Assembly: GCA_963170055.1 (NCBI GenBank)
Contig: CAUJGJ010000003.1
Span: forward strand, 1,362,869-1,426,868
Reading direction: 5' to 3'
Length of the DNA: 64,000 nt
Source: Halisarca cf. caerulea
Taxonomy: Eukaryota; Porifera; Demospongiae; Chondrillida; Halisarcidae
Made by a program: the position numbers and the translations under genes. Under the pieces are notes generated by a model. The model did not search any database. It was not told the DNA's origin and saw only the letters and a program-made list of their open reading frames with translations. Shown piece after piece: positions 3,561-64,000 of this stretch. Numbering within the stretch: position 1 is the stretch's first letter; each line of letters starts with the position of its first letter.

Positions 3561-3839
3561 CCTATGATGTGTACTTTTTGGATAGCATGTATTTCTTACC
3601 TGGAGATACTTATAAGACTAATCAATAATACCGTATAGCCGGAAAGGTTGGCAGGAAGAAAATTGGGCGAATTGTACCCGAATTTAAACATTTTCACTTG
3701 GGCGATTACCTCCAGGGACACTATAATTATATTCATAATCTATGAATAATAAGATGGGTGCAGCTGTGGTCTTGGGGATCGACATTCGAAGATCGAAAAG
3801 AGTGTGCACTGCTCGTTCGTTATTGCCGTCATTTAAAAT

Positions 3840-4255: not shown

Positions 4256-4587
4256 TTGTGATTGAAGCAAGCAGCTACGTACACATAGAGTAAAATTATG
4301 CGTGATGTCATGAAAATGGCTGCCTAGTCGGGAAGAAATTCAGAACATCAGTGTTAAGTGTTTCCAGCATTTCAGCATGTACAGGAGCTATTTTGGGTTG
4401 AAACAAAGATTAACTAGTGATGCCTCTTGATCCTAAGTAGGGGGACTTGTCTTTGGTTAATCATTTAGTGAATTTGACCACTTAGCCTCTGGGAAGCGCC
4501 AAATAAAAATACTAGAAGTTACTTAAAAGTGAAGAGGCAACTAACTCCTCTGCCTCATAGCTAGTTACGCCCTAGCACACAGGCACT

Positions 4588-4781
<194 letters not shown>

Positions 4782-5159
4782 CATGTATGCACATTATACA
4801 CACAGGTACTCATTTTATTACTATCGCAGGTATGACATGTGCCTTTTCAGTAAACAGAGGGGCATTGTGTGGTTTGCAAAGGAATTCGATTGAATAATAA
4901 CACGTTTTACTGATCATGTTGGTCAGGCGTATGCTGTATGAGTAGCCTGAAGGATAATATTATACGCCCTTTTACTCTCAACCAGATGAATATTATATCG
5001 AATATCGTGTATTAGTCTGGGCATAAAGTGTTTTCAAGATATTCTAATAGGTATTCTTTTGTGTTGGGAGGAGTATCAATTTCACTGATTGTTACATTTG
5101 TCACCTTTTGCTGGTGACGTCATCATACCGTGTGACAACCTTGTGATAAACAGCCAGAG

Positions 5160-5510
5160 AGAGACTTCTTCAATGACTGCAGATTCTTTAAAAACCCGGT
5201 CATCTGAACGGTTGTGTAGAGGAGCCATGTCGCGGGAGTTAGATCACGATAGGTAAATCTAAATTTTCACCGTGGAGATTTTGATAGCATGCCCCATTCC
5301 CGACATGTGCACAAGTTTGTGGTTTTGCTTTGGATGAAAAACAACGTTTTGGTAGACATCTCAGGAATGAAGAGGAATGGTAAGTTCTCCAACGGTGAAA
5401 ATTTTTGATATTGCTGTTGTAAGGTTCTGAACAAAGTATGGCTGCTCAAAATGATGGTTTACATGACCGGGTTTTGCACTAAACCTAATTTTAAGGTCCG
5501 AATCTGTGGT
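5160..5510. repeat. Decayed fold-back (nested inverted repeats)
   Basis: Two pairs of inverted words share one centre near 5335. AAAACCCGGTCAT near 5191 pairs with ATGACCGGGTTTT near 5463. AAATTTTCACCGTGGAGA at 5261 pairs with TCTCCAACGGTGAAAATTT at about 5385, with one indel. This is the pattern of an aged palindromic MITE. Confidence 0.55.
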
Positions 5511-5711
5511 TGTCTTTTCGGCTTCGCGAAGCTGGGACAACAAAGTTAAGTCAACTATTGCAGCGTTGAATAGTTGAATTAATGCTCTGTATGCTTCTTG
5601 TACTACATAAGTGAACTAAACGGAAGAAAAGTGGGGGGTAATTTCTGCCGACTTTAGGGCGGCCATTTTGACTTCTGCTCACATGTGCACATGTCACACC
5701 TGCGATGGACA

Positions 5712-6120
5712 ACATCCTACTTGATTGTCAAAATCAGCCTTGAATGATCTAGAATGGCCTCAAATACAACCTTATACAACCTAAAGATTTTCCTGGGGGG
5801 ACGTGTCCCTGGATCCCTTAGTTACTTACGTATATACCCCTGCACTCCATATACATATCTGCATGCACCTCTATCGGTACAGGCATGTGTTTTATAGATG
5901 TCTAGGATATCACATATGCATACATGTATCTCCCCCCCCCCCCCCACACACACACGCTATAATTTGTAATTACCCCACCACCATCATCTTGAAAGAAAAC
6001 CTGCTATATGTATAATATTTGCATCAAATCTATGTGCATATCTTGCGCGGCAGCCATTCACTGTAGTATACTCAAGCCCATTCTTCCCCAAAATTTAAAT
6101 CCTAGATAGAACCCTGCCTT
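5712..6120 (+). repeat. Dispersed repeat family R1, copy 3
   Basis: ACTTGATTGTCAAAATCAGC and the following ACCTTATACAACCTAAAG match copy 1 in the same orientation. Similarity continues through a long C run near 5932 to CCCAAAATTTAAATCC, which corresponds to the end of copy 1. Confidence 0.65.
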
Positions 6121-6259
6121 TATAATCAGACAGTGATAGAGTTCAGAAAAAATGTCGGATGTATACTCAGGTTGTTGGATTACAGAGAATAACTTAATTT
6201 TGGCAAATAAATAAGTTGACTAGCATACGTATGTATTAATATGAGTGTATGCACTATGA

Positions 6260-7018
6260 CACAGGGTATTTATAACCGTCCGAAAATAAAATGCAAAAAT
6301 GGCCGTCTTGAAATAGCTTCACAAATTATCGATCGTTTCTACTTCGTTGACAAGATTTTCGCCCAGTTCTTCTTACTGAACGAAAGTTGTATATATTCCG
6401 CGCATGTTGGTACTTAACTAGCGATTGTTTCTATTGTCTGAAGGAAGATAGCCACCTAGGAATACATAGCAGTTTTAGACAAACTTCGCCTTGGTTAGAC
6501 CTTAGATCCCTCTCAATTCCCATCAAACAACACGGAAAGACAGAACAAGTAGTGAGCTATCTGAAAATCGTTCTGGGCTATAGGTTATAATCTTCCGTAA
6601 GATAGTTATAACCGAAAAACCTGTTTTTTCACCCTTCAAACGGCCAAAATTTAGCATAAATGGTCCAATTGCGAAAAACTGCTTGATTGTAGCACTATGC
6701 CCGGAACGATTTTCGCAAACCGAAACATCTTAAGATTCCATCGAAGTTGGATTTGGTGAGATTCGAATGCATCTGAGGTCTAACCAAGCAACTTCATCTT
6801 CGCCCTCAACAAAACTGCCATTTTCGTGACGTTTCACGGATACGTAGGCAAAACGTCACAAAAGTCGCCTTCTTCCCCCATTCTGTTGATACGTGAAATT
6901 TCGTACGTCATCCGATAGACGCCAAATGACGCATTTAAAACAGCTGCTAATTGTTGACGTAGAAAACAAGCACCGCCCACAATCGGAACAAGCAACAGAC
7001 GGTTATAAACACCCTGTG
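6260..7018. mobile_element. MITE-like element, 759 bp, 21-bp inverted ends
   Basis: The left end CACAGGGTATTTATAACCGT(C) and the reverse complement of the right end, CACAGGGTGTTTATAACCGT(C), differ at one position. The CAGGGT terminus resembles hAT-type ends, but no 8-bp target duplication is visible, so the superfamily is open. A diverged relative with the same inner sequence (ACAAGCACCGCCCACAAT) occupies 15091-15730. Confidence 0.75.
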
Positions 7019-7179
7019 GATGTGCCATTAGTGAGGGTGTATATACACAGTAAAATAGAAACTATTTAAATGTAGCTCATAGCCAAAGGTTGTTGCAAAT
7101 GCGACTAGTCTAGTGGCTTTAAATTTTTTTATTTCGTATATTAAGTATAAGCGCTTGGTAGACTAAGCCCATGGAGAGG

Positions 7180-7480
7180 GTGATGTATATGTATATACAA
7201 AATGCTGGATGTACATTAAGTGACGTTTTCTGTGATCATCACTGATGCTCTGTCACATGCTAGCTTGTGACCTTACTCACTGTTCTTTGGAGTTTTGTTT
7301 TCAGCTGGGTGCTATGTGAGGGAACAAGCTGGAAACCTTTTATGGCGAGCCAATTTTGCAGATCTCGGCTTTGGAGAGGAATGGTCAATGCTGCCACATA
7401 GAAAAAAAATTGTGTTTTGTTATAGGGATTCATGTGAAAAAATGGGAGAGACTCCCTGCTCAGTTTAAGGCAAAATTGCA
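7180..7480. repeat. Dispersed repeat shared (inverted) with 22900-23250
   Basis: Words such as GGGTGCTATGTGAGGGAACA and CAAAGCCGAGATCTG occur here and, on the opposite strand, inside the element at 22630-23363. This is probably a partial or decayed copy of the same MITE family. I did not find its termini. Confidence 0.55.
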
Positions 7481-7499
7481 AAAGCTTATGGGAATAAAT

Positions 7500-8925
7500 A
7501 CAAGCCCCTTTGCATGCAACATAACCTTTCTCCTTCAGTAATTATCAACATAGATAAAGCACCTGTATGATCCAACATGCCATCCAGGACCACCATTGAC
7601 AAATGCAAGAAAGATATCTTAATCTGCAGCAATGGTGCATGTAAATGGCACTTTAAAGTTACATGGGTTGGTGTACCAAGAATGGTACACGAACCCATCA
7701 GTTACCAAGATCCTTAATGTGGCATCATCATAGGTGTAGGAACCAAGGCACTTGCCCCCACAAAATGAATGGGGGGGGGGGGGGGGCAGTGTCCCTACAA
7801 CCCGAATTATCATATTAGTACAAAAATTCTTATAACAGATGTTTTCAACAATATACCATATATTCACTGTTTTCACTCGGCAGGTATAGGCCTACCTTCA
7901 AGTGTGAAAGAATTAATGATGGCTACACGACGAGCAACGTATCCTCTCAAAGTTGCAAACTGTGCACCAAAGAGCTAAGAAAAGCACTTTAGCGTTCTTT
8001 TCGCTACATTTTAGGGTTATTCAAATCATTATAGGTGCATATAATAGCCAAACTCTACAAGTTCGTCAGCTCTTTAAGTATTTGTCACTCTACTCCAAAG
8101 TTTCGTCAGCCATTCTCAGAGGTGGAAAAACAACTCTAAATTCTCTTGTAGGATGGATTTTTCGTGAAACTAGGTGTGACGAATTCTTAGAGAATATATG
8201 ATACTAGCTATTTAGGGCGTTAAAACTATACTTGACCCTTGTAAAAGCCAATTTTGATAAAAAAAATACCTACCTAACATGTTAGAACCATAAAATTGGA
8301 ACTGACACAACCAGTAGTGCTCGGGCGGCCATTTAATTTTAGTCACATGCAACCAATGTGTTGCATATGTTGCCAGTCTTTTTGCTTGTATAAGCGAGTG
8401 GATTTGTTATGCTGGGCACTGATTTTGTCTTTGAACTCCTAAAGTAATGAAACAATTAGTAGATTTGCTGCCAATTCACACAGACAAGGACAATTTGGTA
8501 GCTTCTGCTGAAGAAAAATCTTCACTTACATATATATGTGTTTTAACTTTGTTTGCAAACAGTCAGTTTAGCTTTTTCTTTTTGTGTCTTAGACAGCATG
8601 TGTAATTCATATAGTATGATAGATCTTGGGTGCACATGCACGGTTATATATAAGTGACACTGTGTTATGTCTAATACATTTACAGTACATTGAAATCAAT
8701 AATGAGCTACGTTCCTATAGATCTGTAATATTCACCCCAACTTAAAACATCTTCCATACACCTATGAATGTATATACTCCGGTACCATTTTAAATGAAAC
8801 TATATGAACAGAAACATTGTAAGTGGATGAAGTCTATGCAAGTTCAGACAATTATAAATATCATATGACATAGTACATGTATAATACTGTATATGGAGTG
8901 CATACGTAATTATAGAATATTTGTG
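7500..8925. other. Non-coding stretch before the gene A Ig exon
   Basis: No recognisable gene, RNA or inverted-repeat element. It contains a poly(G) run near 7770-7787. If gene A has upstream signal-peptide or Ig exons they may lie here, but none could be recognised. Confidence 0.4.
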
Positions 8926-8961
8926 ACTTGAAGTATTTCTTTTTTATCGATACTTTTGCAG

Positions 8962-9330
8962 GTCAAACAGCAGTTGTGAGTGGTACCAACTTTGTTAATG
9001 GTAGTGGATTATGTTTTGGTGATCAACAAATGAAGGAAGGGACTCCATTCATAGTATGTACACCTTCAGGATTTCCCCCAGATGCGGTCAATTATGGTAT
9101 ATTATGGACCCTTGATGGTTCTCAATTGGGTCTGGGTGCTGTGAACAGCATGTATCCCGATCGTATTGATGCTTTGGATTCACAAGCAGGGGTGTTTCGA
9201 CTGAACATCCTCAATGTTACTAGTTTTGGAGTGTCCTCTGTTGCCTGCAGTATATCTGCTTTGAACAGTAGTTTTGTTCAAGTGGGAGTAACACCAACAT
9301 CAGCACCGGAGAATATCTCTGTTGTTAACG
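8962..9330 (+). CDS. Receptor gene A, Ig-like domain exon
   Basis: This 369-base exon is phase 1 at both ends. The acceptor is ACTTTTGCAG and the donor is AACG/GTAAGTACT. It encodes one immunoglobulin-like domain: the first core cysteine in FIVC, a tryptophan in GILW, and the second cysteine in a VSSVAC context after FRLNILNVTS. It has several N-glycosylation motifs (NGS, NVT, NSS, NIS). The paralogous exon of gene B (41222-41590) has exactly the same length and matching boundaries. Together with the FN3, EGF remnant, linker and transmembrane exons downstream on the same strand it suggests a type I membrane receptor-like protein. Start-of-gene exons were not identified. The domain call is firm, but ligand and function are unknown. 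Confidence 0.85.
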
Positions 9331-49312: not shown

Positions 49313-50336
49313 CAATAAGATTCTGGAGCAAGGGGGTGATTAAAAAAGCAAGTCTCTCTCTATATGCTGAAGCCAAAGGATTCCTGAGTCTTAACAGGCA
49401 AGCAGAATCATATATGGAGAGGTGAGTTAATTTTTACAGAGGGCATGCAATACTCGGCATGTTTCTTGTGTTCAGCATCATTGACTACATCCCTATTTAT
49501 CTGCTGAAGACTGCTACAATTTTGAGCTTAGGTGAGTGGGCAAATTGCATCCTAAAAACATCCCTGAGGTCATGGGTACCGAGTCAAGTGGATCGCAGTG
49601 TGTGTACGCAATGTTGAAGATCATACAGTGGAGTTTCTATAGGGTGAGGCTGGGTAACTTGAAACGGATGGGTAGATAACTACAGGTATTCGTCCGTATC
49701 GTCAGGGCAGCTTAAAATTGTATTGTCAGTATTGTCAGGGCAGCTTAGTAAAGACCTGATTGAAGTTACTCCAATCATAGATGTTCCTACTGGAATTGAG
49801 GGTGAATAAGAGCGACACTGCGGGCCAACTATAAAGAGTCGAAAATTTACACGATCAAACGAAGATTGAGGTCAGAGCTGGCCTTGCAAGTGTTCCATTC
49901 ATACAGCTAAAAAGATTCTTGGATCAACTATAAAGAGCGGACAACGGCCATTTCTTCATGATGACGCAACATGACGTCATGCACGTGACCTCACCAAGCT
50001 CACTAACACCCTGACAGTCGGGACACGCAATGATGACGTCATACAATGACGTCATGGGTCGGGAAAGGAATAGGTTTATAGGGTATTTGTTTAATGTAAA
50101 CATGCAATGATAATCGATGAATATTAATCAGCGTGCATTTACAGATAAACCAAAATTTACAGCAAATCATATGGAATAAATTACAAATGACGTAGCATGC
50201 ATTTTAGCGCGAATTTTGAGCGATTTTCAGCGATTTCCAGTCTTGCAGTTTTGCCTTACTTGCTTTGGAGCTTTGCAGCCTTATAATCACAACTTTTTTG
50301 CTTCTTTTGGGAAATTCTTCACTTTTTCAGTAAACC

Positions 50337-51251
50337 ATGCCACTTATGGCTCTTGGACCAATTGTCTTTGGACCCATTCTTGCATTAATTCGGTGGTTTC
50401 AGTCAAATGGTCTCATAGCAGACCCTTTGGCCTGTCCTGTCTGTTCCACTCCTTCTTCAAGAGTTAACATGATACTGGAGCCCCGTGAAGATGTTAGTGA
50501 CAAGTATAGGTGGAGGTGTACTCAATGTCAAAACAGACTTTGCTTGCGAAAAGGAAGTTTCTACTACAACTCGAGACTTCCGTTACAGAAGTGGATGATT
50601 TTGATGCACTGTTGGGCATATGAGTACCCTGTAACCACGGCTGCGGTGGAAGCAAGTGTCAGTGAGGGCGCAGCTGTACAGGTGTATCAGTATTTGCGTG
50701 AGGTGTGTTCCACCACACTGATAAACACCCCTATCATCCTCGGTGGCAACCAGACCATTGTTCAGGTGGACGAATCCCTTTTCAGGCATAAGCCCAAGTA
50801 CCACCGGGGGCGAGCAACCTCAAGTGAACAATGGGTATTTGGACTGGTTGACACCTCCACCAAACCAGCAACTGGATACATGGAACTAGTCCAAAGCCGT
50901 GATGCACAGACCTTGCTCCCTATTATCCAGGCACACACGGCACCTGGTACAATTGTTCACTCCGATCAGTGGAGAGCATATAGCCAGGTGCCAACTTTGC
51001 CAACTGTGTCTAGCTATGCCACGGTGAACCACAGTGTGAACTTTGTTGACCCTGTAACAGGAGTGCACACTCAACACATTGAGAGCTACTGGAGTAGGGT
51101 CAAGAGGCGTTTCAAGGCCATGAAGGGAGTGAGCTCCACACAGTTGGCAAGCCACCTTGACGAGTTCATGTGGCGTGAGAGATGGGGAAAGACAAAGGAA
51201 GAGGCCTTTACCAACATAATGAGGGATATTGCTACTCAGTATCCAGTGTAG
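50337..51251 (+). CDS. Merlin transposase (IS1016/IS1595-like DDE)
   Basis: An intact 304-codon ORF centred in the Merlin element. Residues 33-64 form a zinc ribbon (C33-P-V-C36 and C61-T-Q-C64), expected for DNA binding. The catalytic DDE triad can be read as D145 in VQVDESLF, D210 in IVHSDQWRAY and E249 in QHIESYWSRVKRR; the H-x2-S-D and I-E-x2-W-x3-K contexts are those of the IS1595/ISXO2-like family. It would excise and insert the element in the nucleus. No introns are needed and length is normal for the family. The ATG at 50337 gives the full zinc ribbon. An upstream start is not supported because the same frame is not open. Confidence 0.92.
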   Translation: MPLMALGPIVFGPILALIRWFQSNGLIADPLACPVCSTPSSRVNMILEPREDVSDKYRWRCTQCQNRLCLRKGSFYYNSRLPLQKWMILMHCWAYEYPVTTAAVEASVSEGAAVQVYQYLREVCSTTLINTPIILGGNQTIVQVDESLFRHKPKYHRGRATSSEQWVFGLVDTSTKPATGYMELVQSRDAQTLLPIIQAHTAPGTIVHSDQWRAYSQVPTLPTVSSYATVNHSVNFVDPVTGVHTQHIESYWSRVKRRFKAMKGVSSTQLASHLDEFMWRERWGKTKEEAFTNIMRDIATQYPV

Positions 51252-52641: not shown

Positions 52642-52810
52642 TGTGACAGGGCCTAGGAAAACGACCCTTATCGCGCCCGGTGTCACAGCTATTTGGGCCC
52701 CCCAGTGATTTGGTTCCCCCAGGCCTAAATCACTAGGGATACAGGGCCCCCCGGAACTAAATCACTGGTACTCACACTCTAGAGAAAGGAGCCCCCCCCC
52801 CCCCCCCCCC

Positions 52811-52985
52811 TTAGTGAATTAGACCCCCCTTCATGTAAGTGGCCTTATATATAATTCTTCCATGCAACTTCACCCCCTTAGTGAATTAGACCACCTTCAT
52901 ATAAATGCAACTTCATGCACCCCCTTAGTGAATAAGACCCACCTTAATGTAAGTGGCCTTATATAATTCTACCATGCCACTTCAC
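52811..52985. repeat. Three-copy tandem repeat, about 60 bp
   Basis: CCCCTTAGTGAATTAGACC, then CTTCATGTAAGTGGCCTTAT, occurs three times with small indels, following a run of about 23 C (52790-52812). Confidence 0.8.
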
Positions 52986-52989
52986 CTTA

Positions 52990-53400
52990 CCTCACCGTGG
53001 TCAAAGCATGCATGATAATAAATATTCTGTATGCATATTAGACTTATAGTAATATATACTGTATAGACTATTATATATATAGGATTAAACAACCCCATGC
53101 ATGCACAATTGCAACCTGCAGCACATGCAGGCCCTTTCTTTTTTGACACATACAATATAATGATTAGTGATTTGAAGCATACATGCAAGACATTTCCTTG
53201 TTCAACAAATTATATTATAATTATAAGCAAAGATAATTAAATATTTAGTATTAAATGTTACAGTAATGACAAATAAGTACAAATTTTAAACTTCATATTA
53301 TAATATTGCACACATCTATTGCCAACAAAAATGAAGTGACTTAATTAGCTTATGCCATAATTACTACAATATTATAACACCAAGTCATTAAAAATGGAGT
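52990..53400. other. Spacer downstream of the Ginger-like gene
   Basis: AT-rich 3' flank. No element terminus (inverted repeat with a CCGG or CCGT target) could be identified. Confidence 0.4.
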
Positions 53401-53403
53401 TGG

Positions 53404-54766
53404 TCATGAACACTTCCTACAAATCCACCCAGATGTAGTATATTTAGGGATAATTTCGCATCCTTCATGAAACCAGTCTCCACAAGCGTCACACTGGATC
53501 ATCCGCCCTGCTTCTTGAAGGCGACAGTGGCAGTAAATAGGTATAACCTCTAATTCCATCACCATTGGTCCTCGTGGTCTCCTTCTCTTTGAAGGAAAAG
53601 GGGTTAATAGTTTATGTTCGAGACAAGATAGAAGATGGCTCCTCATCTCAGCCTGGTCAAACATTACATATACAGGATCCATGCCATTGCAAATTGCTGT
53701 TGCAAATGCAACAGCAAAAAAGCCACAGTCTGAGCCACTTACTTGCCGCTGAACATTCATGAACGACAACCTTATGTGTTCATGGGGAGACAACATTAGA
53801 GAACAGATCTGGTTGTTGTCTTCCCTGGACATGGTGGTGTATAAGCTGTCGTAAACCAGTACAGATTCTGCTCCCTTGTCACCAAGACCCATTGTTGAAA
53901 TGGTTGTCCAGTGAGATGTAGTATGTAGAATTTGAACAAATTCTCCTCTCGTGACACTGAAATGATGTCCCTGCCCCAAAAATGTGTGCTGGAGTCCTCT
54001 AACACTAAATTGTTGCTTCAAAAGATTTTGAGCAGCATTTATTATGTCATCACTCAGCCACTTCCGAGTTGAAAGGAGAATGTCCTTCTCTGTTCTTGTG
54101 AGCTGGATGTCCCCAATCTTCACCCAATTCCAGCGACTTGATGTCTTTCGACGTTTTGCGGCAACAGGTGAAACAGGTAGTACCTTGTGGCGTTTCGCAG
54201 TAACAGGTGTAACAGTTTGTATCTTCTGATGTTTTGCAGTAACAAGTGAAACAGATGGTACCCTCTTAAGTTTAGTAGTAACAGGCGAAACAGGTGGTAT
54301 GCAAGTCAAGGTGGTCTTGGTAGGGAATGAAGTGGAGTTGGCAGCGAGATTGGGAGATGTAGGCTTGGCAGGGACACCAGGTGATGTAGGCTTGGAAGGG
54401 ACACCAGGTGATGTAGGCTTGGTAGGGACACCAGGTGATGTAGGCTTGGCAGGGACACCAGGTGATGTAGGCTTGGCGGGGACACCAGGTGATGTAGGCT
54501 TGGCAGGAACAACGGGAGATGTAGGCTTGGCAGGAACAACGGCTGATGTAGGCTTGGCAGGAAATGCGGTGGAGCTGGCAGTGACAACGGCAGATGTAGT
54601 CTTGGTAGGGATTGAGGTGGAGTATGCAGGGACAACTGCAGATGTAGTCTTGGCAGATATAACGACAGATGTAGGCTTGGCATGGACAACAGCAGATATA
54701 GTCTTGATGGGGACCGAGGTAGAGCTGGTCACCTTAAAAATGGCTGAAAATGGAGACGATGTACTC
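53404..54766 (-). CDS. Ginger-like gene, last exon: repeat linker, Ulp1 protease, PHD finger
   Basis: The acceptor GTATCCTCAG puts this exon in phase with the preceding one. Numbering from the methionine at 54732: residues 1-150 are Thr/Ser/Pro/Val-rich, with a 9-residue repeat (PTSPGVPAK) repeated about seven times. Residues 205-375 are a Ulp1/C48-type cysteine protease with H274 (SHWTT), D295 (VYDSLY), Q330 and C336 (QVSGSDCG) all present. Residues 398-441 are a complete C4HC3 PHD finger (C401, C403, C414, C417, H422, C425, C438, C441) ending at the stop. Known Ginger1 transposases carry Ulp1 or OTU protease C-termini. The substrate (SUMO or other) and histone binding are inferred only. Confidence 0.85.
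54340..54640. repeat. 27-bp coding minisatellite
   Basis: GATGTAGGCTTGGCAGGGAC-type 27-bp units, about ten, encode the PTSPGVPAK repeat on the minus strand. The length is a multiple of three, so copy-number change keeps the frame. Confidence 0.95.
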
Positions 54767-54914
54767 CTGAGGATACAAAAAGATTAACACAAGTAAGACT
54801 AGCTACGTATACATAATATAGTCTTGGAATACAATCTTCTTTGGTACTTATCAGATGTGTGTATGCAGCTGCATATGGACATTCTGACACTGGTCAGAAC
54901 ATGCATATGCTTAC

Positions 54915-55306
54915 CCAAATTCTTTCTGAATTTCTACAGTATCCATGGACAGCAATGACATAACCCATGACTGGAAGTGGCAAAACTGTTCCCCTGTGAG
55001 GAAATAACAATTCTTGCCAAAGACATTACCAATTTGCACATCTTCCTTGGATTCGTATTCTTTAACTACCCATAGGTTTAGTAGGTCACTGCTGAATAGT
55101 ACATGATAGCTGAAAAGCTTTGAGTAGGTCTCCCTAAATTGGCTAAAATCATGTTCCAAGGTATCATTCATAATAATGAATGATTCCGTTTCTGGAATGG
55201 TCACATCAGTTATGGGTTCACCGCACCACTTGTGGTAATTCAGCCAATGAATAACTTGTGTGCTTGTAAACATAGGAAATTGAGAGGCTGTGGCATATTC
55301 CTTGAG
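54915..55306 (-). CDS. Ginger-like gene, exon of unknown domain
   Basis: A 392-base exon (acceptor CTATTTACAG, donor TTTGG/GTAAGC). It enters in phase 0 and leaves in phase 2, fitting both neighbours. It encodes about 130 residues, including QVIHWLNYHKWCGEP, an aromatic-rich middle (YSKLFSYHVLFSSDLLNLWV) and GEQFCHFQSWVMSLL. I do not recognise the fold. It might be a transposase C-terminal region or a substrate-recognition segment for the protease. Confidence 0.7.
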
Positions 55307-55562
55307 CTGTAAATAGGGAACATGGGTTGTACAAAGAATCAAAAGTATAAACATATATATTACCCATACATGATAACATTCAATTTGCCACAATCACATT
55401 TACACAGGGCTTTTCTAGCTACCCACAGCGTCCCAGAATTAGAAATTGACAAGTACGTAAAAGATAGCATGCAGAATTGCTTCTTTTCACCATTTTCCCC
55501 ATATATAGGTGAGGGCCATTATAATACCTTGTGTATATACCCTGATGAGGAGGAATACTCAC

Positions 55563-55680
55563 TGGTGGATGCTGAAACCTCCAGGGAAAGTGGTGCTCCA
55601 AATCATAGTCACCATGCAGCAGAGCTCCAATGTAGTGATCATCCAACAACATTTCTTGCAGCATTGTTGCAATCAATTTT
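55563..55680 (-). CDS. Ginger-like gene, short exon (5' boundary unresolved)
   Basis: Open minus-strand segment MLQEMLLDDHYIGALLHGDY then EHHFPWRFQHPP, with donor CCACCA/GTGAGT in phase 0, joining the next exon in frame. I could not find an acceptor that fits the phase left by the exon at 56283-56390, so an exon may be missing between them. The DDHYI...LL pattern resembles the start of Ulp1-related domains in transposon proteins, weakly. Confidence 0.5.
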
Positions 55681-56282
55681 CATCTCATCAACGGTTGATA
55701 TGCTTGTCACATTACATATACTAAAGTGAAAGTAAATGATAACAAATACACCTGCATTAGGGTACCGATAGCTTCATCTTGGTATATTATACTATTCATT
55801 TTGCATGCATGCCTATTATCCTCATATATAGTGCAGAGGCATAGGAGGCATTCTGAATGGGGTAGGCCACGCATATATGCATACAAGGTTGGGGTTGGTT
55901 GTCTGTGTGTGTTGTGGCCTCAATCACTTCATGCAAAAAAGTACTTGTAGCTATTAAGAACAGGCTTATTAATAATTACTTGATTCACTGTGACAGTTAT
56001 ATATAGTGTTGATTTATAGCTGCTGCAATCCCCCACAAAACAGGACTGCTTTTGAGATTGGGTGGAGGATTTTGAATGGGTCAAAAAGAAAGCTGTGTTG
56101 TGATTGCATTTTCACTCAAGGAAAATAAAAACTTATATATAGCTAATTTCAAAAAGTGGGGCAGCCATAGCCTCCCTTGAACACTCCTACTCCTATGCCT
56201 AATAGTATATATAGCGATACAACAATTTCATTGATTCAGAAGTAGAGAAACCACAAGGTCTATTATAGTGGCATGCACATAC

Positions 56283-56390
56283 CCAGGCCCGAATGTTTCA
56301 TATGCAGCCATTTCCTTAGTTGACTCATCAATGTGACTGAATTGTGACTGTCTCACTTCCACGGACTCAGAAACAGATGTATTATCACCA
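56283..56390 (-). CDS. Ginger-like gene, short acidic linker exon
   Basis: 108 bases, acceptor ATGTATAG, donor CCTGG/GTATGT. Its first base completes the serine codon begun in the previous exon. It encodes SGDNTSVSESVEVRQSQF and EMAAYETFGPG, with no domain. It links the integrase to the C-terminal modules. Confidence 0.6.
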
Positions 56391-56485
56391 CTATACATGT
56401 TGATGGAATGGAATAAAAACAATGAATACAAACGATTCATGTCAATGTGCCGCAATATGTTCTGTAGCATACATATAAATATTAC

Positions 56486-56691
56486 CTAGTATCTCTAAGA
56501 CTAGAAAAGTATTGCTTCAAGCGTTGATGGTTGTAACGTTTTTTAAGTAGTTTTCCATCTTTGTTTTTCAGTTGGTAAAGATCATGATCAAACGCTTCTG
56601 CCACTGTATAGGGACCTAGCCACTTGCTGTCCAGTTTCCCACCTTTCCGTGTAAGTTGTAATGAGTTTTGGACAAGTACTGTGTCACCAAC
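56486..56691 (-). CDS. Ginger-like gene, GPY/F-motif exon
   Basis: 206 bases, acceptor GTTTTGCAG, donor ACTAG/GTAATA. It encodes VGDTVLVQN...KLDSKWLGPYTVAEAFD then LYQLKNKDGK. LGPYTV is the GPY/F signature of gypsy-type and Ginger1 integrases, here a small SH3-like DNA or chromatin-contact domain following the catalytic core. The phase fits on both sides. Confidence 0.85.
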
Positions 56692-56782
56692 CTGCAAAAC
56701 AAGACAAGATGTAGATAAACATATGCATGCCACTTATATAACTTGCAGGTGGAAGATATAATATTGGAAGAAGCACACTCAC

Positions 56783-57199
56783 TGCAAATCTGTGGACTTT
56801 AGGGAGACAATTGTCATACCGATTCTTCTGCTTTGTCTGTTCTTTTAGAATGTTCTTATCAACTTTAGAGAACACAGCCTTCCTCAAATCCAGGCTCTGC
56901 TGGACAGTTTCATCGATCAATACAGAATCAGTATGTGCACTGTTATCATCAAGCGATATACCACTAGTTCCAGGCTCCTCACTAGTAGCCATGGTGCCTA
57001 CATTCACATCCACAGGTAAACGCATGTCCCATTTGTGAATTAGGTAAAATGGTGAATATTTAGTGGAGGCCTGCTTGGCAGCACAGTAACCCATTAATAT
57101 AGAATCCACCTTTGTATCCCAGTCATCCTTACTTTCTTCACACAACTTTGCTAGGCTACGCTGTAAAGTCTGGTTCATGCGTTCAGTCAAGCCATTGGT
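56783..57199 (-). CDS. Ginger-like gene, integrase exon with catalytic Glu
   Basis: 417 bases, acceptor TCATTATTTAG, donor TTTGCA/GTGAGT, phase 0 at both ends. It starts TNGLTERMNQTLQRS: the E after NGLT is the third catalytic residue of the integrase DDE. It continues with the KDDWDTKV and YSPFYLIHKW segments that follow the core in this family, then a less conserved acidic linker. Confidence 0.88.
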
Positions 57200-57276
57200 C
57201 TAAATAATGAGATGAACAAAAAATAATCATAATATAATATATACTATTAGTCTATATTGCAAATATGTATACAAAC

Positions 57277-57408
57277 CTGAGGATGATAAGCACTGGCTAT
57301 TCGATGCTCAATTCCAGTTTTTTGGCATAGTTCTTTATTTAAATTGTTGACAAACTCCTTTCCTTGATCAGAGATCATAATTGAAGGGCAACCCATTCTA
57401 CAAATCAC
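57277..57408 (-). CDS. Ginger-like gene, integrase exon with second catalytic Asp
   Basis: 132 bases, phase 0 at both ends (acceptor GGTACTAG, donor CCTCAG/GTTTGT). It encodes 44 residues including MISDQGKEFVN (second catalytic aspartate) and HRIASAYHPQ, standard landmarks of gypsy-type integrase cores. Confidence 0.88.
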
Positions 57409-57477
57409 CTAGTACCAAAAAGGCATGGTTAGCATGATTAAGGTTACAATACATTACATATATGCATGTCAACTCAC

Positions 57478-57723
57478 AGAATAGATGAACTGAGCAATAC
57501 TTGCAGCACTCTTATCTGGTAGAGGAGCAGCTTCAACCCACTTTGTAAAGTAATCACTCATCATGGCAATGTATTGGTTTCCACTACAAGACCGAGTGAA
57601 GGGACCAACCAGATCAATTCCAACCTGATGCCACTCCTTTGGCTTCACTGGAAATGGGTGCAAAGGAGCAGTTGACTTCTTTATTGTAGAGTTGCCTCTT
57701 TGGCATTTTTCACAAGTTCTGAC
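57478..57723 (-). CDS. Ginger-like gene, integrase exon with first catalytic Asp
   Basis: 246 bases, phase 0 at both ends (acceptor TTTCATGCAG, donor TATTCT/GTGAGT). VRTCEKCQR supplies the second half of the H2C2 zinc finger. HQVGIDLVGPF holds the first catalytic aspartate, followed by SDYFTKWVEAAPL. Confidence 0.9.
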
Positions 57724-58047
57724 CTGCATGAAATGTATACGTAACGAGAAATAATACAGTACGCATGATGTTATAATTAAGTAACTCCATTTGCGAGCTT
57801 GGTCATCTTTTTGTAATAAGGAAGTGTAAACAATTACTACTTTTCACCCAATCAAACTTTCTGTTCCCTGCCACAAGCATGCACCTTTGAGATGAGATTG
57901 AGTTTGAGATTTCAAGTGTGGTACTGTACCACTTTATTGTGCTTTAGTAACTTCCATGGATATATACTTAGGTACAAACACATGCACACTTACATCGGCA
58001 AACAAGTGGACATGGACACATTTACATGCACATACACACATACGTAC

Positions 58048-58189
58048 ATATTCAGTTGCATCTGTGTAAAGGCCTGGCCAGTAGTACTTGTGTTGCACAA
58101 CACTCAATAATTTGTCACGCCCGAGATGACTAATATCATGTGTTCTGCTCAAAATTTTCACTTGTTCTTCCTTCTTTTCCACGACAAGT
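58048..58189 (-). CDS. Ginger-like gene, H2C2 zinc-finger exon
   Basis: 142 bases, acceptor ATTATTATAG, donor GAATAT/GTACGT. RTHDISHLGRDKLL gives the two histidines and YYWPGLYTDATEY the linker to the cysteine pair in the next exon, making the N-terminal H-x3-H...C-x2-C finger of retroviral-type integrases. It fits in phase with the next exon. Confidence 0.88.
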
Positions 58190-58379
58190 CTATAATAATA
58201 TCATATACAATCATTATACTAAGCGATTATAAATACACCTTGACACTGAACAACAATACCTATAATTAATACAGTCTATATATAGTATACATAAGTGCTT
58301 CGAAGTTTCTGTAACTCGCCATGGAAAATTAACACACATTGTGAATAAACTACGCGTATTGAAAGCAATTTAAAATCTA

Positions 58380-58435
58380 TACTACTATTAAGTAAAATCT
58401 ATACTACATAAGTAAAATCTATACTACATAAGAAA
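58380..58435. repeat. 21-bp tandem repeat, three units
   Basis: AAATCTATACTACATAAGTA-type units occur in an intron of the Ginger-like gene. Confidence 0.85.
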
Positions 58436-58516
58436 AGCATGCACATGCACTGAGCTATATAATATACTACAGTTACTATGCATGCATGCAGCGTGTAATA
58501 ATAAAATGCAACAAAC

Positions 58517-58622
58517 CTTGGTGAATCTGTGCCTTTTGGTCCAACATAGTGAAGATGTGAACTATCCACAACAAAGGCCTTGGCACGTTTTCTTAGAGCT
58601 CGTTTGTTTTTTTATCGTAACC
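58517..58622 (-). CDS. Ginger-like gene, most 5' recognisable exon
   Basis: The donor CCAAG/GTTTGT joins in phase with the zinc-finger exon. It encodes RKRAKAFVVDSSHLHYVG, the basic and aromatic lead-in seen before the zinc finger in gypsy-type integrases. With the most obvious acceptor (CTTACAG at 58623) the frame meets TAA beside an A7 run. One base more in that run would keep it open, so either a homopolymer error, a real frameshift or another acceptor is involved. Upstream exons were not found. Confidence 0.55.
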
Positions 58623-59315
58623 CTGTAAGTGAAGGCAATTTGAAAAAGATGAAAGGCATAATATAGCTGCAATAATAATCAGAACATGAAGTAAGCCAGA
58701 ATGGGTATAAAAATTGCAAGGAGCATTGGTTTCAAAGCAATTTCCATAGCCCATGCAGTTATATAGGTTCAGCCCAACATTGGTTGTCCACCAGTCACCT
58801 CAGGGTAGCATCCATTTTTCTTATAGTTGAATAAGGCTGCATAGTATAATCCTCCATTGTCATTCATGGTTCTGTACTAATTCCCTCGAAACGAGAATAG
58901 ATCTCTTAATTACTCAAACACTGAAATGACTGAGAGGACTGAAAGGATAAGTGAACAGCAAAGTAAAAGCTACTTAAATACTTGGTGGCACAGGAAACCA
59001 CAAGATGATGAAATACAGATCAACTAAATATATTCTTAGATGTGGTTGGTCTCTTAGACAACAGAAGGAAAGTGAAAGTGGTTACTAGGAGATAGAAAGG
59101 TGGTACAACAATAACTGATCTAAATGTAGTGTAATTATAAACAGCAATGTGATCAGGAATCAATGGATCAAAGAAAAAGGAAGTGTCATGTTACAGAAAG
59201 GACATGAAATTGGAATGATTAAATCTAACCACAAAACCACAGCCACATGAATGTACAATCACTGAATAATTAATATACGGGGGTTGATTGTCATTACTAT
59301 ATTCATGACAAACAC

Positions 59316-60441
59316 TTACAAAGCTTATGGATGTGACGATATCGATCCCTGTTTGATACAGATCTGTTCTCATGCCCCGTTCACCCACCTTACTACCTTG
59401 TATCAATTGTGCATGACCACAAACTCCATACCCCACCAATGGAAAGTCGACCATTAAATCATCCTTATCCACAAAAAAGGTAACCATTCCCTTATATCAA
59501 ACTACAGACCAATCTCACTACTCTGCATCTACTACATGAATCTACATGAATCTACACATCTACATGAATCTACTATTCTTAAAACAATTATATTTCAAAA
59601 AATCATCGACTTTGTGCGACCCCAGTTATCACCTCACCAATTTGGCTTTTTATCAAACCACTCCTGCCTGACAAATCTCCTTACCACCTATACACTGCTA
59701 TCTCAAAATCGCTGGACAAAGGTCATACTACTGATGTCGTCTACGTTGATTTTACTAAGGCATTTGATACTCTACCCCATACGAAACTGCTTAATAAACT
59801 ATGGAGAATTGGTATCACTGGCCCTCTCTGGCTATGGTTTAGGGGTAATTTAGAAGGCAGGCAACATTTTGTGCAAATAAATGATACTCAATCTTCCTGT
59901 CTACCTGTCCTGTCTGGTGTGTGGTATGTTTACGGAATGCTCTTCAACCTATCAACATTGATGTACCTTTCAACTTCATCAACATCATCTCATTAAATTA
60001 AAAACTCTGTGGAATAGATTTAAGCATAACTTTGACCCTTCCAATATATGTACATACCATTGTGTCTGTCCCTGTTCCCAGTGCCACTTGATTCCCTAAT
60101 GACCATTTAACCCATCTTTCTCTTTTCTGTAATTACATGAGCCCACAATTATGCACCTCAATTTCATGCCTTTTAAATCAATATCTTTCCACTATCTATA
60201 TCTATGGTCTCGATTATTCACATTAATGAGCCTGCAACATACATGTTTATTTCATGCAGTTTAAATCCAACTGTCACTCATGACTCACTTAAATTCATTC
60301 ATCATGACTACCTATAACTCAATCACCCGTCACCCTTTAATGTCTCTCTTTCCTTATTTCTGGCTGCACCAGTCCATGGTGTCAGACCATCAGTCACCCA
60401 CTGTGTGACTGTAAAGCATTAAATAATAATAATAATAATAA
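59316..60441 (+). pseudogene. Truncated, internally deleted LINE (reverse transcriptase)
   Basis: Plus strand. Landmarks in order: IPHQWKVDH, KKGNHSLISNYRPISLL (RT block 1), PHQFGFLSNHSC, then after a frameshift VYVDFTKAFDT (RT block A with its catalytic aspartate) and ending PVLSGV. The next landmarks of the palm (YADD region) are missing. The sequence jumps to a C-terminal CxxCxxCxxCH-like stretch (NICTYHCVCPCSQCH) and then a 3' UTR ending GTGACTGTAAAGCATTAA with (AAT)n. It is a CR1/jockey-type retroelement by motif. A short CTACATGAAT duplication lies near 59536. Confidence 0.8.
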
Positions 60442-61240
60442 AGCTCTGACACAGGGGTAAAACATGTGTAACACTGAAAACATGTTGTGTATGTTGTCAA
60501 TCTTCTCAAGTGCTTCACTGATTCTGTCATTGAGCTTTTTACTGGAGGGCTTTTTGTGGTGGACAGGGTGGTGGCAATGGTTTGGCCCAGGAACTTTGCA
60601 AAACTCATGCAAAACATCATGCTCTCATTACAAACACATGCACATAGTCAATGCCGGGCTATGTTCTGGTGGTCATAGAAAGCTAGGGATCTGGTTTGAA
60701 TTACATCAAACACCAACAACAGTCCTTAATTAACTTTACTAATTGCAAACATAGATAATACATACATAGCAGTGGAACGAGGTGGGGTATATTTTTCGGA
60801 CTGCGTCGGACCGGACCGGACCGTCCGGTCCGTTAGTATAACGGTATAATTTACGGACCACAAGAAAAAGATGGCAACGTAGGTTGAATATAATATTATA
60901 GATTCACGATGAGATCAAGTTTAGAGTGTCTATGATGTGATGTCAGCAAGTAGTTTGTAAGGGCTAGCTATGTGCAGGCGAAGAACTTTAGGTCAGTTTC
61001 TAAGATCCTAGTTCTGTTATGTGTTCAATATTAACCCCGTTCTCTACGTGTATGTGACTAGCTGTGGAGCTAGTGCTTTACATTTGTCTCTAGTTCTCTA
61101 GTTTGGTGTGTATAACCCAGTAACTGATGCTTTTCCTGGGGTGTGATCAGTTGTATAAGCTTGTGAACCAAGAATAACTTAATGTTTAAACTGTGTAGTG
61201 CTATGTAACACTGCTCAATGCACATTAGGTCCTATATTAT
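60442..61240. other. Spacer between LINE and MULE gene
   Basis: The minus-strand frame 60394-60612 (KKPSSKKLNDRISEALEKID) looks like a possible exon, but no splice partner was found. Near 60805-60850 is a (GGACC)n/(GGTCC)n-like inverted cluster (CGGACCGGACCGGACCGTCC). Confidence 0.35.
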
Positions 61241-61249
61241 AATCTCATC

Positions 61250-61350
61250 ACTTATACTTCTATTACTACTGGCTACACCACCAGTTAATCTTGAGTCCAT
61301 CAGTCACAATGTGACTGTAAAACATCGTAATAATTATAATAATGATAGTG
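61250..61350 (+). mobile_element. LINE 3' end fragment
   Basis: CCATCAGTCACAATGTGACT then GTAAAACATCGTAATAAT matches the 3' end of the LINE at 59316-60441 (CACTGTGTGACTGTAAAGCA). This is a 5'-truncated copy. Confidence 0.65.
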
Positions 61351-61412
61351 ACTATGTATACGTATTATATTAGTTGTAGTACATATTAGACTGAAAGATA
61401 AACTTAAATCAA

Positions 61413-61794
61413 TTAAACTGTTATGTGTTTATACATACTACAAATCCAACTAATACCAGAATCCATGAAATATTTACTAGGTACATTGCAGCATTCTTTG
61501 TGGTACCACATCTTGCAATGTTCACACTCAATCATCCGTCCTTCTTCAATTCCTCGGCATGTACAATATATGGGGACACTTGTTGTCTTGGAGTAGCGCC
61601 ATTTCTTGAATTTTTCTGATGACTTGAATGGCTTCATTAAGCCTTCCTCTATTGACTCAATGAGGTGTCTCCTAAGGGATCCCTGATCAAAATCTCTGCT
61701 TAAAGGATCTTCACCCATGGCCATGCTCACGGCATTTGCTATGGCAAAAAGTCCACAATCTTTAGTCCCTGCCTGCTTCTGTACATTTACAAAC
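61413..61794 (-). CDS. MULE gene, last exon: Ulp1 C-terminal half and PHD finger
   Basis: The acceptor TTCATTGTAG is in phase with the exon ending at 61873. It encodes FVNVQKQAGTKDCGLFAIAN (the Gln and catalytic Cys region of a Ulp1-type protease), FDQGSLRRHLIESIEEGL, and a PHD-like finger: PIYCTCRG, RMIECEHCKMWYHKECC and SWICSMY before the stop. It parallels 53404-54766 closely in order. The last zinc ligand is Tyr (TAT) instead of Cys (TGT), so the finger is probably impaired. Confidence 0.75.
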
Positions 61795-61872
61795 CTACAA
61801 TGAATTGCATGTAGTACATACCACATAGAAAGGGGTAATTCAGTATATAGAATTAATGCTGTGTTTCCAAAC

Positions 61873-62454
61873 CTGATTTCAATGGCATCCTCTTTTGTCT
61901 TCATTATGGTTGCTATTTGCCTCTGAAGGCAAGTTGGAATCTTCTGTGATTGTGGGGGTGCTGTGTCATATATTTCCACTGCACCATCCTCACTGAATTT
62001 GTTAGACACGCATACCCAATGCGATCAGTTAAATCGATTAATTTAGACCTTTTCTTTAGGGTTTGATTTCTTGAGTAGATGGGAGCGGGCGGTAGCACAG
62101 GACTGGAGGAGGGAGGCAGCACAGGACTGGAGGAGGGAGGCAGCACAGGACTGGAGGAGGGAGGCAGCACAGGACTGGAGGAGGGAGGCAGCACAGGACT
62201 GGAGGAGGGAGGCAGCACAGGACAGGACGAGGGAGGCAGCACAGGACAGGACGAGGGAGGCAGCACAGGACAGGACGAGGGAGGCAGCACAGGACAGGAC
62301 GAGGGAGGCAGCACAGGACAGGACGAGGGAGGCAGCACAGGACTGCAGGAGGAGGGAGGCAGCACAGGACAGGACAAGGGAGGCAGCACAGGACTGGATG
62401 AGGGAGGCAGCACAGGATTGGACGAGGGAGGCTCTATATGGGATTGAATACACA
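61873..62454 (-). pseudogene. MULE gene, linker exon and broken N-terminal half of Ulp1
   Basis: The acceptor TATACCAG joins in phase 1 to the MULE exon. It then encodes an 8-residue proline repeat (PPSSSPVL type). After KKRSKLIDLTD the frame must shift by one to read SHWVCVSNKFSED and VEIYDTAPP, which carry the catalytic His and Asp of the Ulp1 domain. Compared with the module at 53404-54766, roughly 60-75 residues between the linker and the SHW motif are missing. The protease is therefore truncated and out of frame with the transposase, unless an undetected splice corrects it. Donor ATCAG/GTTTGG. Confidence 0.65.
62075..62440. repeat. 24-bp coding minisatellite
   Basis: About fourteen units of the GGAGGCAGCACAGGACTGGA-type 24-mer. 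The unit is a multiple of three and lacks stops in several frames, so five long shadow frames overlap it. On the minus strand it encodes the PPSSSPVL repeat of the MULE protein. Confidence 0.95.
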
Positions 62455-62511
62455 CTGGTATATTTTTGCATATTAGAATTGGTGTATATGTTTAAATGAA
62501 ATATGACTTAC

Positions 62512-64000
62512 CGTTTCCCAACTTTGTAGTTTCTTCTAAGATAGCCACAGGTCTGCTCAGTTCTGATTTTGTAGCCTTTTCTTCTGTCTGTGGCATCTTC
62601 CCTTCTGTTGTTGGAGTCTTCTCCTCTCCCACTACAGTTCTAACTTTGGCATCTGGAGCTGCCTCTATTTCATCATCCGCTAGAGGACCTTTGCGACCTT
62701 TTCTCTTGGCACATTTGGGCCTCACATTTCTTCGAAGTTGTGTCATTGTTATTGTTCTTTTCTTGCTACCCACGGTCATACCCATATACAGCTTTGCAGC
62801 TATAATGTGGTAGCATTCACCTTTGGCGGGGCAAGTACAGGAGGGTTTGGGGAACAGCTTCACAGCATGAACGTGTGTTGTGCCCTGCACCATAAATGCC
62901 TTATGTTGTGCTTCATATGTGCAGTGGTTGTTCTCAAGAATAAGACGTGCTCTGGCTATTTGACTCCCAGGGACCATGTCTTGTTGGTTAAGTATAGCCT
63001 GCTGGGGTTGCACTTGCTCATTGATACTTGGTGGCAACTCTTGTGTGACAGTCCCATTTTCAAGATCACGTTCATTGTCTTCTTTGCATTCATTGTCACT
63101 GGTACAATCACCATCTTCATTGCTGGGTGTACTATGCCTTTGTGCTGCCAGTTTCTCAGCGATATTCTCAGGTGCAAAGCAATGTACCAACTCCATATCT
63201 TCTGTATGTATGGCCAGTCCCTTGAATGCACTCAGCAGAGTATACTGTCCAAGTCCTGCCAGACCTCTCTGTATCTCATTGTTGTAGTAGCACTGAAGGA
63301 AGTACAGCGCAAGTACTAGAGAGTCTACTGTTTTCTTCTTTCTCTGAACAAGATTCTTGATAAGAGTGTTGAACCCCTCACTTTGGTTGGTTGTTACCCC
63401 ACTGTATCCATTATAAACACCCAAGGGCTCCAAGATCCACCTACCAGCAGAAGACATCACTTCTGGGGCAACTTTCTCCTCATAGTACTGTACAAATGCA
63501 TGACTCCATTTCCTACTGACTTCTCTGTACAGTTGTTCATACTCGTCTTGTGTTGGTGACATTAGCAACCTCTTCAAATCTTGGGTGTAAATGCTGCACT
63601 CACTGGTTGTTGCCCCACGCTGCTTGAGCCAATACCTTGCTGCACTCTGGAGGTGGTTCCAGCATCTCAGATGCGCAACTTGTGGAAGACAGTTGGTGAT
63701 AGCTTTGATTATATTTTCTTCTCCATCTGTGACTAAAGGTACTCCAGGTACTCCCATGATCTCAGGAACCTCTGACGCAATAAAACGCATGAGAACCTCA
63801 TGGGCATATTGTGTCCGTTTCTCGTGGATGAGAAATGCCACAGGCATTACTGGTGCTTGCTCAAACAATGTATGCTTGAACAGCAGTGGTGAAATGTAGA
63901 AGTCGCCCATATTATAAGTTGTGTCATAAGACAACAGCTGTTGCTGCTCTCTAGAAATGCTCATTAGAGCTCTAAATTCCTGCAGGATAGCCCTGTGTGC
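62512..64000 (-). CDS. Mutator-like (MULE) transposase with SWIM finger, 5' end off window
   Basis: Open from the window edge to the donor GGAAACG/GTAAGT. The frame stays open upstream of the methionine at 63964, so that is not the true start. Numbering from 63964: the first catalytic Asp is probably D14 (LLSYDTTYNMG), the second D80 (PLVTDGEENI), followed by LRCWNH (C101, H104) as in MULE transposases, and E196 (TTNQSEGFN). A SWIM zinc finger follows (C376-x-C378 ... C384-x-H386 in PSCTCPAKGECYHI), then a basic nuclear-localisation-like stretch (RNVRPKCAKRKGRKG) and an acidic tail. It would act as a cut-and-paste transposase. All three catalytic residues are present, but the N-terminal DNA-binding part is not visible here. 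Confidence 0.88.

Follow-up and report, generated by a model that had tools for sequence, protein, structure and literature searches.

Two transposase genes of unrelated kinds adjoin on the minus strand of a 64,000-nucleotide stretch of DNA from the sponge Halisarca cf. caerulea, and both lead into a Ulp1-like cysteine protease and a PHD finger. This raises the question how two different transposons came to carry the same C-terminal tail, and whether their neighborhood has to do with it. The whole stretch (contig CAUJGJ010000003.1, C3:1362869-1426868), called the window in the following, was analyzed together with the genome of 194 Mb in 454 contigs. The two genes and their elements are named A and B; L-numbers denote loci and C-numbers contigs of this genome, and P-numbers denote outside proteins. 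The explanation which fits best overall, and which we regard as probable, is that A was hit by B and that both families bear a Ulp1-PHD tail which is exchanged like a cassette.

Elements A and B and their nesting

The initial annotation had placed A and B in tandem. A tandem gene pair was ruled out by five B-free loci of the A family (L002-L006), in which the sequence joins window position 60768/60774 directly to 66025/66012. As the sequences flanking B are contiguous at these loci, the adjacency of A and B is a nested insertion, with B located in the 5′ part of A, between the 5′ terminus of A and its gene. The target of B is seen in L005 and L006; in the window, B is flanked by two copies of this target, of which one matches and the other is degenerate. 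The right duplication (66022-66029) matches the empty site in L005, the left one (60773-60780) is degenerate, or shifted by one base. An insertion of A into the CCGG-rich inverted repeat of B was also considered and rejected, as the B-free loci show the reverse order.

Gene A was assigned by its sequence to a Ginger1 DNA transposon, since the TGTCA-type ends TGTCACAGC and the CCGG sites outside them are published marks of Ginger1 (TGTNR ends and CCGG/CCGT target sites; Bao et al., 2010, PMC2836005). Its window part spans 52681-64000 (minus strand, like all parts of A and B given below), with the 3′ terminus at 52681, the CCGG of the target-site duplication side at 52677-52680 outside TGTCACAGC, and the interruption by B at 60781-66021. 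The 5′ terminus is extrapolated to about 66.4 kb, within a run of N of about 5 kb directly upstream of B (L009, about 4200-9200, or about 66199-71200 in window numbering), which conceals it. An exact search for TGTCACAGC at 13 loci of the A family returned eight ends, four of them 5′ (L002-L005) and four 3′ (L010-L013), all eight with CCGG outside; no such end was found at L006, L014, L015, L016 and L019. In the C355 copy, which is 96-99% identical to A, both termini were seen (L005, L011), and an integrase exon 92-99% identical to that of A is present at six further loci. Sub-terminal tandem units of about 70 bp near the 3′ end of A (52806-52986) vary in copy number among the copies of the family.

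The integrase exons of A lie at 56283-58867, their ends being placed by eye at GT/AG. The H2C2 part (58189-58048; PF17921 Integrase_H2C2, 60.5 bits, cut-off 25.5) and the DDE core (57723-57478, 57408-57277, and 57199-56783; PF00665 rve, 40.9 bits, cut-off 32.6) are above the Pfam cut-offs, and a GPY stretch (GKLDSKWLGPY, 56691-56486) was recognized by eye (SH3_Tf2-1, 17.7 bits, cut-off 30). The N-terminal exons, from the ATG at 58867, are predicted and apparently disrupted in frame. Two exons (55720-55563 and 55306-54915), by which integrase and tail are connected in other copies, were located by alignment with the copies on C265 and C290. These are followed by a low-complexity tandem-repeat linker (54150-54766) with Tandem Repeats Finder arrays of 27 bp (54355-54706), 39 bp, and 48 bp, by the Ulp1-like protease domain with its H-D-Q-C residues (53587-54117), and by the PHD finger (53407-53544; PF00628, 29.1 bits, cut-off 24) up to the stop codon at 53404. 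In the window copy the integrase frame stops near 55640 and an overlapping frame starts at the ATG at 55664, so that relative to the C265 and C290 copies the frame is broken near 55660; a second break, read by eye, is probably located in an A-run near 58.6 kb. Both other copies examined (C265 and C290) keep the frame into the exon before the linker, whereas the window copy does not, and from these continuous frames the A family is predicted to encode one fusion protein. Within the 5′ part of A, a non-LTR (long terminal repeat) reverse transcriptase-like fragment was noticed by eye on the plus strand (59458-59996; SNYRPISLL, FTKAFDTLPH), which from 59800 onward is sequence common to other A-family loci.

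Gene B is classified as a Mutator-like element (MULE) with 43-bp inverted repeats. The whole element comprises 60781-66021, of which 60781-64000 is in the window and the remainder in L009, where the start codon is found (ATG at 65598). The 3′ terminal inverted repeat is located at 60781-60823; in the C290 copy of B the 43-bp repeat is an 88% one. The transposase exon extends from 62512 to 64000 and on to 64341, with the DDE core at about 63847-63212 and a SWIM-like motif near 62845-62805. Its putative MULE domain scores just below the Pfam cut-off, with an E-value of 9.9e-06 and 26.4 bits (PF10551, cut-off 27.6), and is also supported by the genome search; the SWIM motif reaches 13.4 bits (PF04434, cut-off 19.6), and the transposase exons are open. 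The linker exon (62021-62433) consists of a 24-bp tandem repeat in 14 copies (14.3 at 62087-62432; about five in the C290 copy). Downstream of it lie the remaining C-terminal half of Ulp1 (61590-62024, intron 61872-61795) and the PHD finger (61437-61565; PF00628, 28.8 bits). The C290 copy is 98.3-99.6% identical to B in long matches and has 5,456 bp between its 43-bp inverted repeats, with CGGTTATG on either side. About 363 bp present in this copy (c290 4578-4940) are missing from B of the window, by which the N-terminal half of Ulp1 is deleted, and what remains of the domain is out of frame with the linker. The second exon of B (L009 3058-3261, window numbering 65057-65260; DWKADGYRWFQNG...FRKVVYHL...LIQYL) resembles by eye a CG-1-type DNA-binding domain; Pfam gave no CG-1 match for it.

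The domains named in the initial annotation were thus found in both genes, namely a Ginger-type integrase with H2C2, DDE, and GPY stretch in A and a MULE transposase with DDE residues and SWIM-like motif in B, each followed by a tandem-repeat linker, a Ulp1-like domain, and a PHD finger. Its statement that each transposase continues into the tail holds for the families, as seen for A in the C265 and C290 copies, and fails for the window genes, of which A has a broken frame and B lacks the 363 bp.

The Ulp1-PHD tail and its carriers

The tails of A and B are homologous, as had been claimed: 63 of 177 amino acids (aa) are identical (36%, E-value 7e-34), and all four motif pairs quoted for them are present in the translations. 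The PHD finger exceeds the Pfam cut-off in both, while for Ulp1 the scores are 13.5 bits in A and 17.6 bits in the remnant of B, both below the cut-off of 20.7. The assignment to the Ulp1/SENP (C48) type is based on the profile of the relatives, invariant catalytic residues, and an AlphaFold model. Among the best 60 of 125 matches, the profile finds yeast Ulp1 (1euv, 3.3e-8) and SENP1 as well as the PHD fingers of PHF2 (the best match, 4.6e-15), PHF8, and DIDO1. H75, D96, Q131, and C137 do not vary among the 15 sequences aligned (the A module and 14 outside proteins), and the module is modeled with a pLDDT of 88.4 and a pTM of 0.87. PHF2, PHF8, and DIDO1 are readers of H3K4me3.

Genome searches with the A module and the B module returned at least 153 matches each. 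The 150 listed matches of the A module correspond to 145 places, when pieces up to 2 kb apart are joined, and at 84 of these the PHD finger is reached. Carriers were labeled by an integrase or MULE match up to 9 kb upstream on the same strand, which was found for integrase at 25 places, for MULE at 13, and for both at one. Such distance-based labels can err, and the Ginger labels may take in neighboring Gypsy integrases. By eye, a stretch resembling GPY was recognized in the A family, L024, L028, L030, and L063/L086; for the remaining Ginger-labeled rows the label rests on the nearby integrase match only. A Ulp1-only group was also observed: many matches (query about 3-184), e.g., C448:1339075, C79:3072115, and C114:2021515, do not extend to the PHD finger, and most of their frames are about 190-440 aa long.

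Fusions in a single uninterrupted frame were found for Ginger in L028 (794 aa) and L030 (621 aa), both with an integrase match and the tail, and for MULE in L049 (534 aa), with a SWIM-like region and the tail. A third class of carriers, again as single-frame fusions, was identified in L027, L031, L032, and L034. The upstream part of L032 (L092) contains a P-element-type helix-turn-helix (HTH) domain (PF12017, 24.6 bits, cut-off 23), as do the outside proteins P0093 (23.8 bits), P0103 (25.9 bits), and P0095 (27.3 bits). P0093 and P0103 combine this HTH with the tail in one protein, and in P0103, which is 1227 aa long, HTH, Ulp1, and PHD are all above cut-off; Pfam gives no catalytic-domain match for this class. 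Distant relatives of the P-like protein (P0169, P0172, P0173) bear names beginning with "Em", which we take to stand for Ephydatia muelleri, a sponge. Outside MULE proteins likewise terminate in the tail: P0044 with 38.8 bits for MULE and values below cut-off for Ulp1 (20.5) and PHD (19.4), and P0058 with 36.6 bits for MULE, 25.6 bits for PHD, and no Ulp1 match in Pfam. By these domain matches, the tail is found on three transposase superfamilies, Ginger1, MULE, and P-element-like.

In L028 and in P0004, P0006, P0007, and P0008, a CXC-like cysteine cluster is located between the linker and Ulp1 (L028: CECRMRCATKKCPCRKKGSSCGSQCHPG). In L020, a caspase-type Peptidase_C14 domain (39.6 bits, above cut-off) and a CXC-like cysteine-rich stretch (about 2-480 and about 777-1239) lie just upstream of the Ulp1-PHD module.

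Exchange of the tail

The strongest evidence for a swap is a mosaic at the DNA level, since it needs no deep tree. L088 (C226), L089 and L091 (both C3), and L090 (C216) are MULEs of the B family. Between L088 and L090, identity amounts to 88.5% in 1,429 bp of the transposase and to 82% in 202 bp at the 3′ end; blastn gave no match between their tails. For the pair of L088 and L091, it is 70% in the transposase, 80% in 840 bp of the tail, and 89% in 76 bp at the 3′ end. In windows of 100 bases, L088 is nearer to L090, wherever this is present, up to about 3200, nearer to L091 from 3200 to 4000, ambiguous from 4000 to about 4400, and then nearer to L090 again. The first switch, at about 3200, falls into the linker, which is a tandem-repeat array in L090 and L091. 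L088 therefore resembles an L090-type element in which another tail has taken the place of the original one.

The residue counts point in the same direction. For L088-L090 vs. L088-L091 they are 108:27 in the transposase and 10:65 in the tail (Fisher p 1e-21), for L091-L089 vs. L091-L088 they are 82:41 and 9:124 (p 3e-25), and for C290-L089 vs. C290-L091 they are 32:57 and 65:21 (p 1.6e-7). L089 and L091, with 78% identity in the DNA of the DDE region and no tail match in blastn, are 88% identical as proteins in the DDE region and 29% in the tail; for L088 and L091 these values are 75% and 81%. A transposase tree which forces B together with L089, as the tails would ask, is disfavored (p 0.015 in an approximately unbiased (AU) test). 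The tail of the C265 locus is 99% identical to that of C226, and the DDE regions of the two are equally close to B (71% and 72%), which argues against a misassembly of C226. The 3′ end sequence of B is 86-89% identical in L088, L090, and L091. Judged by these comparisons, the tail has been exchanged among MULEs of the B family, while transposase and terminal repeat were kept.

The wider relations of the tails were analyzed in three trees. The 50-row tree consists of the 55 module rows of this genome minus five short MULE rows (L051, L075-L078). For the 49-row tree, 23 of these 50 rows were removed as near-copies and 22 of 88 outside proteins (P0004-P0091, at least 150 filled columns) were added, and for the 27-row tree the unlabeled rows and P0021 were removed. 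The eight copies of A form their own clade in the 50-row tree (100/100), where B, its copy, and the MULE L048 make up one clade, nested in a set that includes Ginger modules (96/96). The B tail also stands in a set with Ginger tails in the 49-row tree (99/97) and the 27-row tree (93/88). The modules of L071-L074, elements with MULE DDE regions 69-74% identical to B, fall apart from that of B. The main split of the 49-row tree (99/91) has the MULE-type tails and four unlabeled rows on one side and the Ginger and P-like tails, B, L048, L049, and the long-branched outside MULE P0021 on the other. With Ulp1 only, B was placed with L048 (100/99) and a MULE-type set of 10 was obtained (99/96), and no starred set of this tree joins B to Ginger; the PHD-only tree had too few columns.

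In total, 17 AU runs were made. The group of A and B was preset by the initial annotation, and the other groups were chosen after viewing the trees, so that their p-values are optimistic. The first six runs gave p-values of 0.014; 1.4e-14, 0.056, 9.5e-13, and 0.008; and 0.015, the next seven 0.39, 0.057, and 0.093; 0.31, 0.22, 0.031, and 0.27, and the last four, for two groups under two models, 0.24 and 0.063; 0.25 and 0.33. The tails of the B-family MULEs as a single clade received p-values of 0.014 and 0.057, and all MULE tails as a single clade were rejected in the 50-row tree (p 0.008) and in the labeled 49-row tree with P0021 (p 0.031). A and B alone as a clade had a p-value of 1.4e-14, in a test which also forces the tie between B and L048 apart. 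The clade of A, B, and L048 costs 24.6 and 23.1 log-likelihood units (p 0.056 and 0.093), by which a sisterhood of A and B is disfavored rather than excluded. A swap within Ginger was considered too; as the rank inversion of integrase and tail on which it was based disappeared with a longer query, it is not claimed.

Several results weigh against the preferred explanation. The single MULE clade was not rejected with the 27-row tree (p 0.24 and 0.25, two models) nor with the labeled 49-row tree without P0021 (p 0.27), and a tree with B and L048 next to the MULE-type clade is worse by just 3.0 log-likelihood units (p 0.39). L090 is without about 240 bp of transposase present in L088, and L089 shows no match to the 3′ end of B. 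Of the listed places, 61 of 145 stop short of the PHD finger and 106 of 145 are without an integrase or MULE match up to 9 kb upstream. Both tails of the window, A and B, are damaged, so that neither window copy represents the functional form. Given the mixed AU tests, a Ginger-type origin of the B tail is the best tree and is not proven.

Outside both genes, a 305-aa open frame on the plus strand (50334-51251) resembles by eye an ISXO2/Merlin-type transposase.

Origin and possible role of the tail

Architecture, homology, nesting, third carrier, and swap are direct observations. A capture across superfamilies is likely, although not proven, and it is less certain that the B lineage exchanged the MULE-type tail which its siblings have for one of Ginger type. 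The far-reaching form of the explanation holds the Ulp1-PHD tail to be a mobile cassette which has crossed among at least three superfamilies in animals (Ginger1, MULE, and P-like) and is swapped via the minisatellite linker, with the B lineage passing from a MULE-type to a Ginger-type tail and tails evolving independently of transposases and ends; to this form we assign an even chance.

A less likely, though serious, candidate is that each superfamily gained the tail once or a few times from a common donor, either a host gene or a mobile Ulp1-PHD gene, and then inherited it, recent exchange taking place only within superfamilies. It would agree with the single clade of P-like tails in the 49-row tree (100/97), with the position of the outside MULE tails P0027, P0036, P0044, and P0058 on the side of L072-L074 in this tree, and with the single MULE clade that passed at p 0.24 (27-row tree) and 0.27 (labeled 49-row tree without P0021). 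However, B with L048 and L049 sit among Ginger tails in the three best trees, and the same MULE clade was rejected at p 0.008 and 0.031 in the 50-row tree and the labeled 49-row tree with P0021. Considerably less credit is given to a protease that cleaves its own transposase polyprotein and frees the PHD finger or the linker, with no action on SUMO. The catalytic residues are conserved in a domain remote from SENP1 and Ulp1, and the linker immediately precedes this domain, but in the listed profile matches, the proteases of known structure are led by a SUMO protease (1euv).

A special link between the neighbors, as suggested in the initial annotation, is very improbable. That A and B traded tails, or share one through being neighbors, would be in keeping with their adjacency, the 36% identity of the tails, and the p-values of 0.056 and 0.093 for A, B, and L048. 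The A tail is, however, closer to several other tails (39-43% identity) than to that of the C290 copy of B (35%), the best trees part A and B, where a grouping of the two modules would have been the support named in the initial annotation, and the clade of A and B alone was rejected at p 1.4e-14. Moreover, a tail of this kind is present at a different locus too, on the C290 copy of B, and the adjacency is explained by nesting. Equally improbable are separate Ulp1-PHD host genes downstream of transposons, for which the different frames of integrase and Ulp1-PHD in A of the window, with an ATG opening the second, might speak, and which are contradicted by the fused frames (A copies on C265 and C290 that read through, L028, L030, L049, and the P-like P0093 and P0103) and by tails lying within the element ends and being repeated along with the elements.

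The exchange like a cassette thus stays the preferred explanation, and the mechanism proposed for it is as follows. Proteins of both families run from the transposase through a flexible linker to the Ulp1-like cysteine protease and the PHD finger. The PHD finger may dock the transposase on open or active chromatin, probably H3K4-methylated, and the protease may free the transposase, or nearby proteins of silencing or repair, from SUMO or a related modifier. The tail would then be kept and exchanged because it is helpful to transposition, and a protective or targeting role is plausible. In this genome the tail behaves as a cassette, with the swap among MULEs of the B family proceeding by recombination in the linker. 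The repeat-rich linker seems to accept changes in length, as from 14 repeats in B to about five in its C290 copy, and recombination; with such tolerance, we propose, tails could be exchanged without breaking either fold. For Ulp1 and OTU domains, an activation of DNA repair factors has been considered (Bao et al., 2010, PMC2836005), and HMGXB4, a host factor of Sleeping Beauty, is regulated by SUMOylation (PMC10138897).

The sharing of Ulp1 and PHD between Ginger1 and Mutator was published in 2010, so that the pairing as such had been described before: Bao et al. (2010, PMC2836005) list Ginger1-9_HM with both domains and align them for Ginger1 and Mutator transposases in their Figure 1e. A resembles these Ginger1 elements, which carry Ulp1 or Ulp1 and PHD (Ginger1-9_HM of Hydra), in H2C2 and DDE, TGTNR ends, CCGG sites, and the C-terminal domains, and differs in its host, its tandem-repeat linker, and a window copy that is damaged and interrupted by a MULE. 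The Mutator elements with Ulp1 of hydra, lancelet, and plants (PMC2836005) are like B in a C-terminal Ulp1-PHD homologous to that of Ginger1; unlike these, siblings in the B family bear different tails with a switch in the linker at the DNA level. Rehavkus elements (Dupeyron et al., 2019, PMC6446971) are related to MULEs and resemble B in their PHD finger, in a minisatellite close to the C-terminus, and in target-site duplications, which are of 9 bp, whereas the repeat of B is in a coding linker between SWIM and Ulp1; the words protease, Porifera, and sponge are absent from the main text of that article. In Crypton elements (PMC3212892), Ulp1 occurs on two element groups and domain shuffling is suggested by the authors, but these are tyrosine recombinase elements of oomycetes and related hosts, and a mosaic is not shown in the portions of the article cited here. 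The third carrier shares the Tnp_P_element HTH above cut-off with P-element-type transposases and differs from them by the C-terminal Ulp1-PHD. In a literature search which covered few subscription journals and not Repbase, neither a tail swap between sibling MULEs nor a P-like transposase with Ulp1-PHD was found in print. New in this study are therefore the explanation by nesting, the third carrier, and the direct evidence for tail exchange.

The initial annotation had also suggested a reusable add-on, and this has been borne out by a tail present on three transposase superfamilies and exchanged within the MULE family of B. With such exchange, sorting transposons by their accessory domains, or relying on trees built from these, can mislead. 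If the explanation is true, the reason for Ulp1 on transposases would be testable with siblings which share the transposase and differ in the tail. If the tail is a cassette that is kept and swapped across unrelated transposases, deSUMOylation together with chromatin reading would likely assist transposition quite generally in the genomes of animals.

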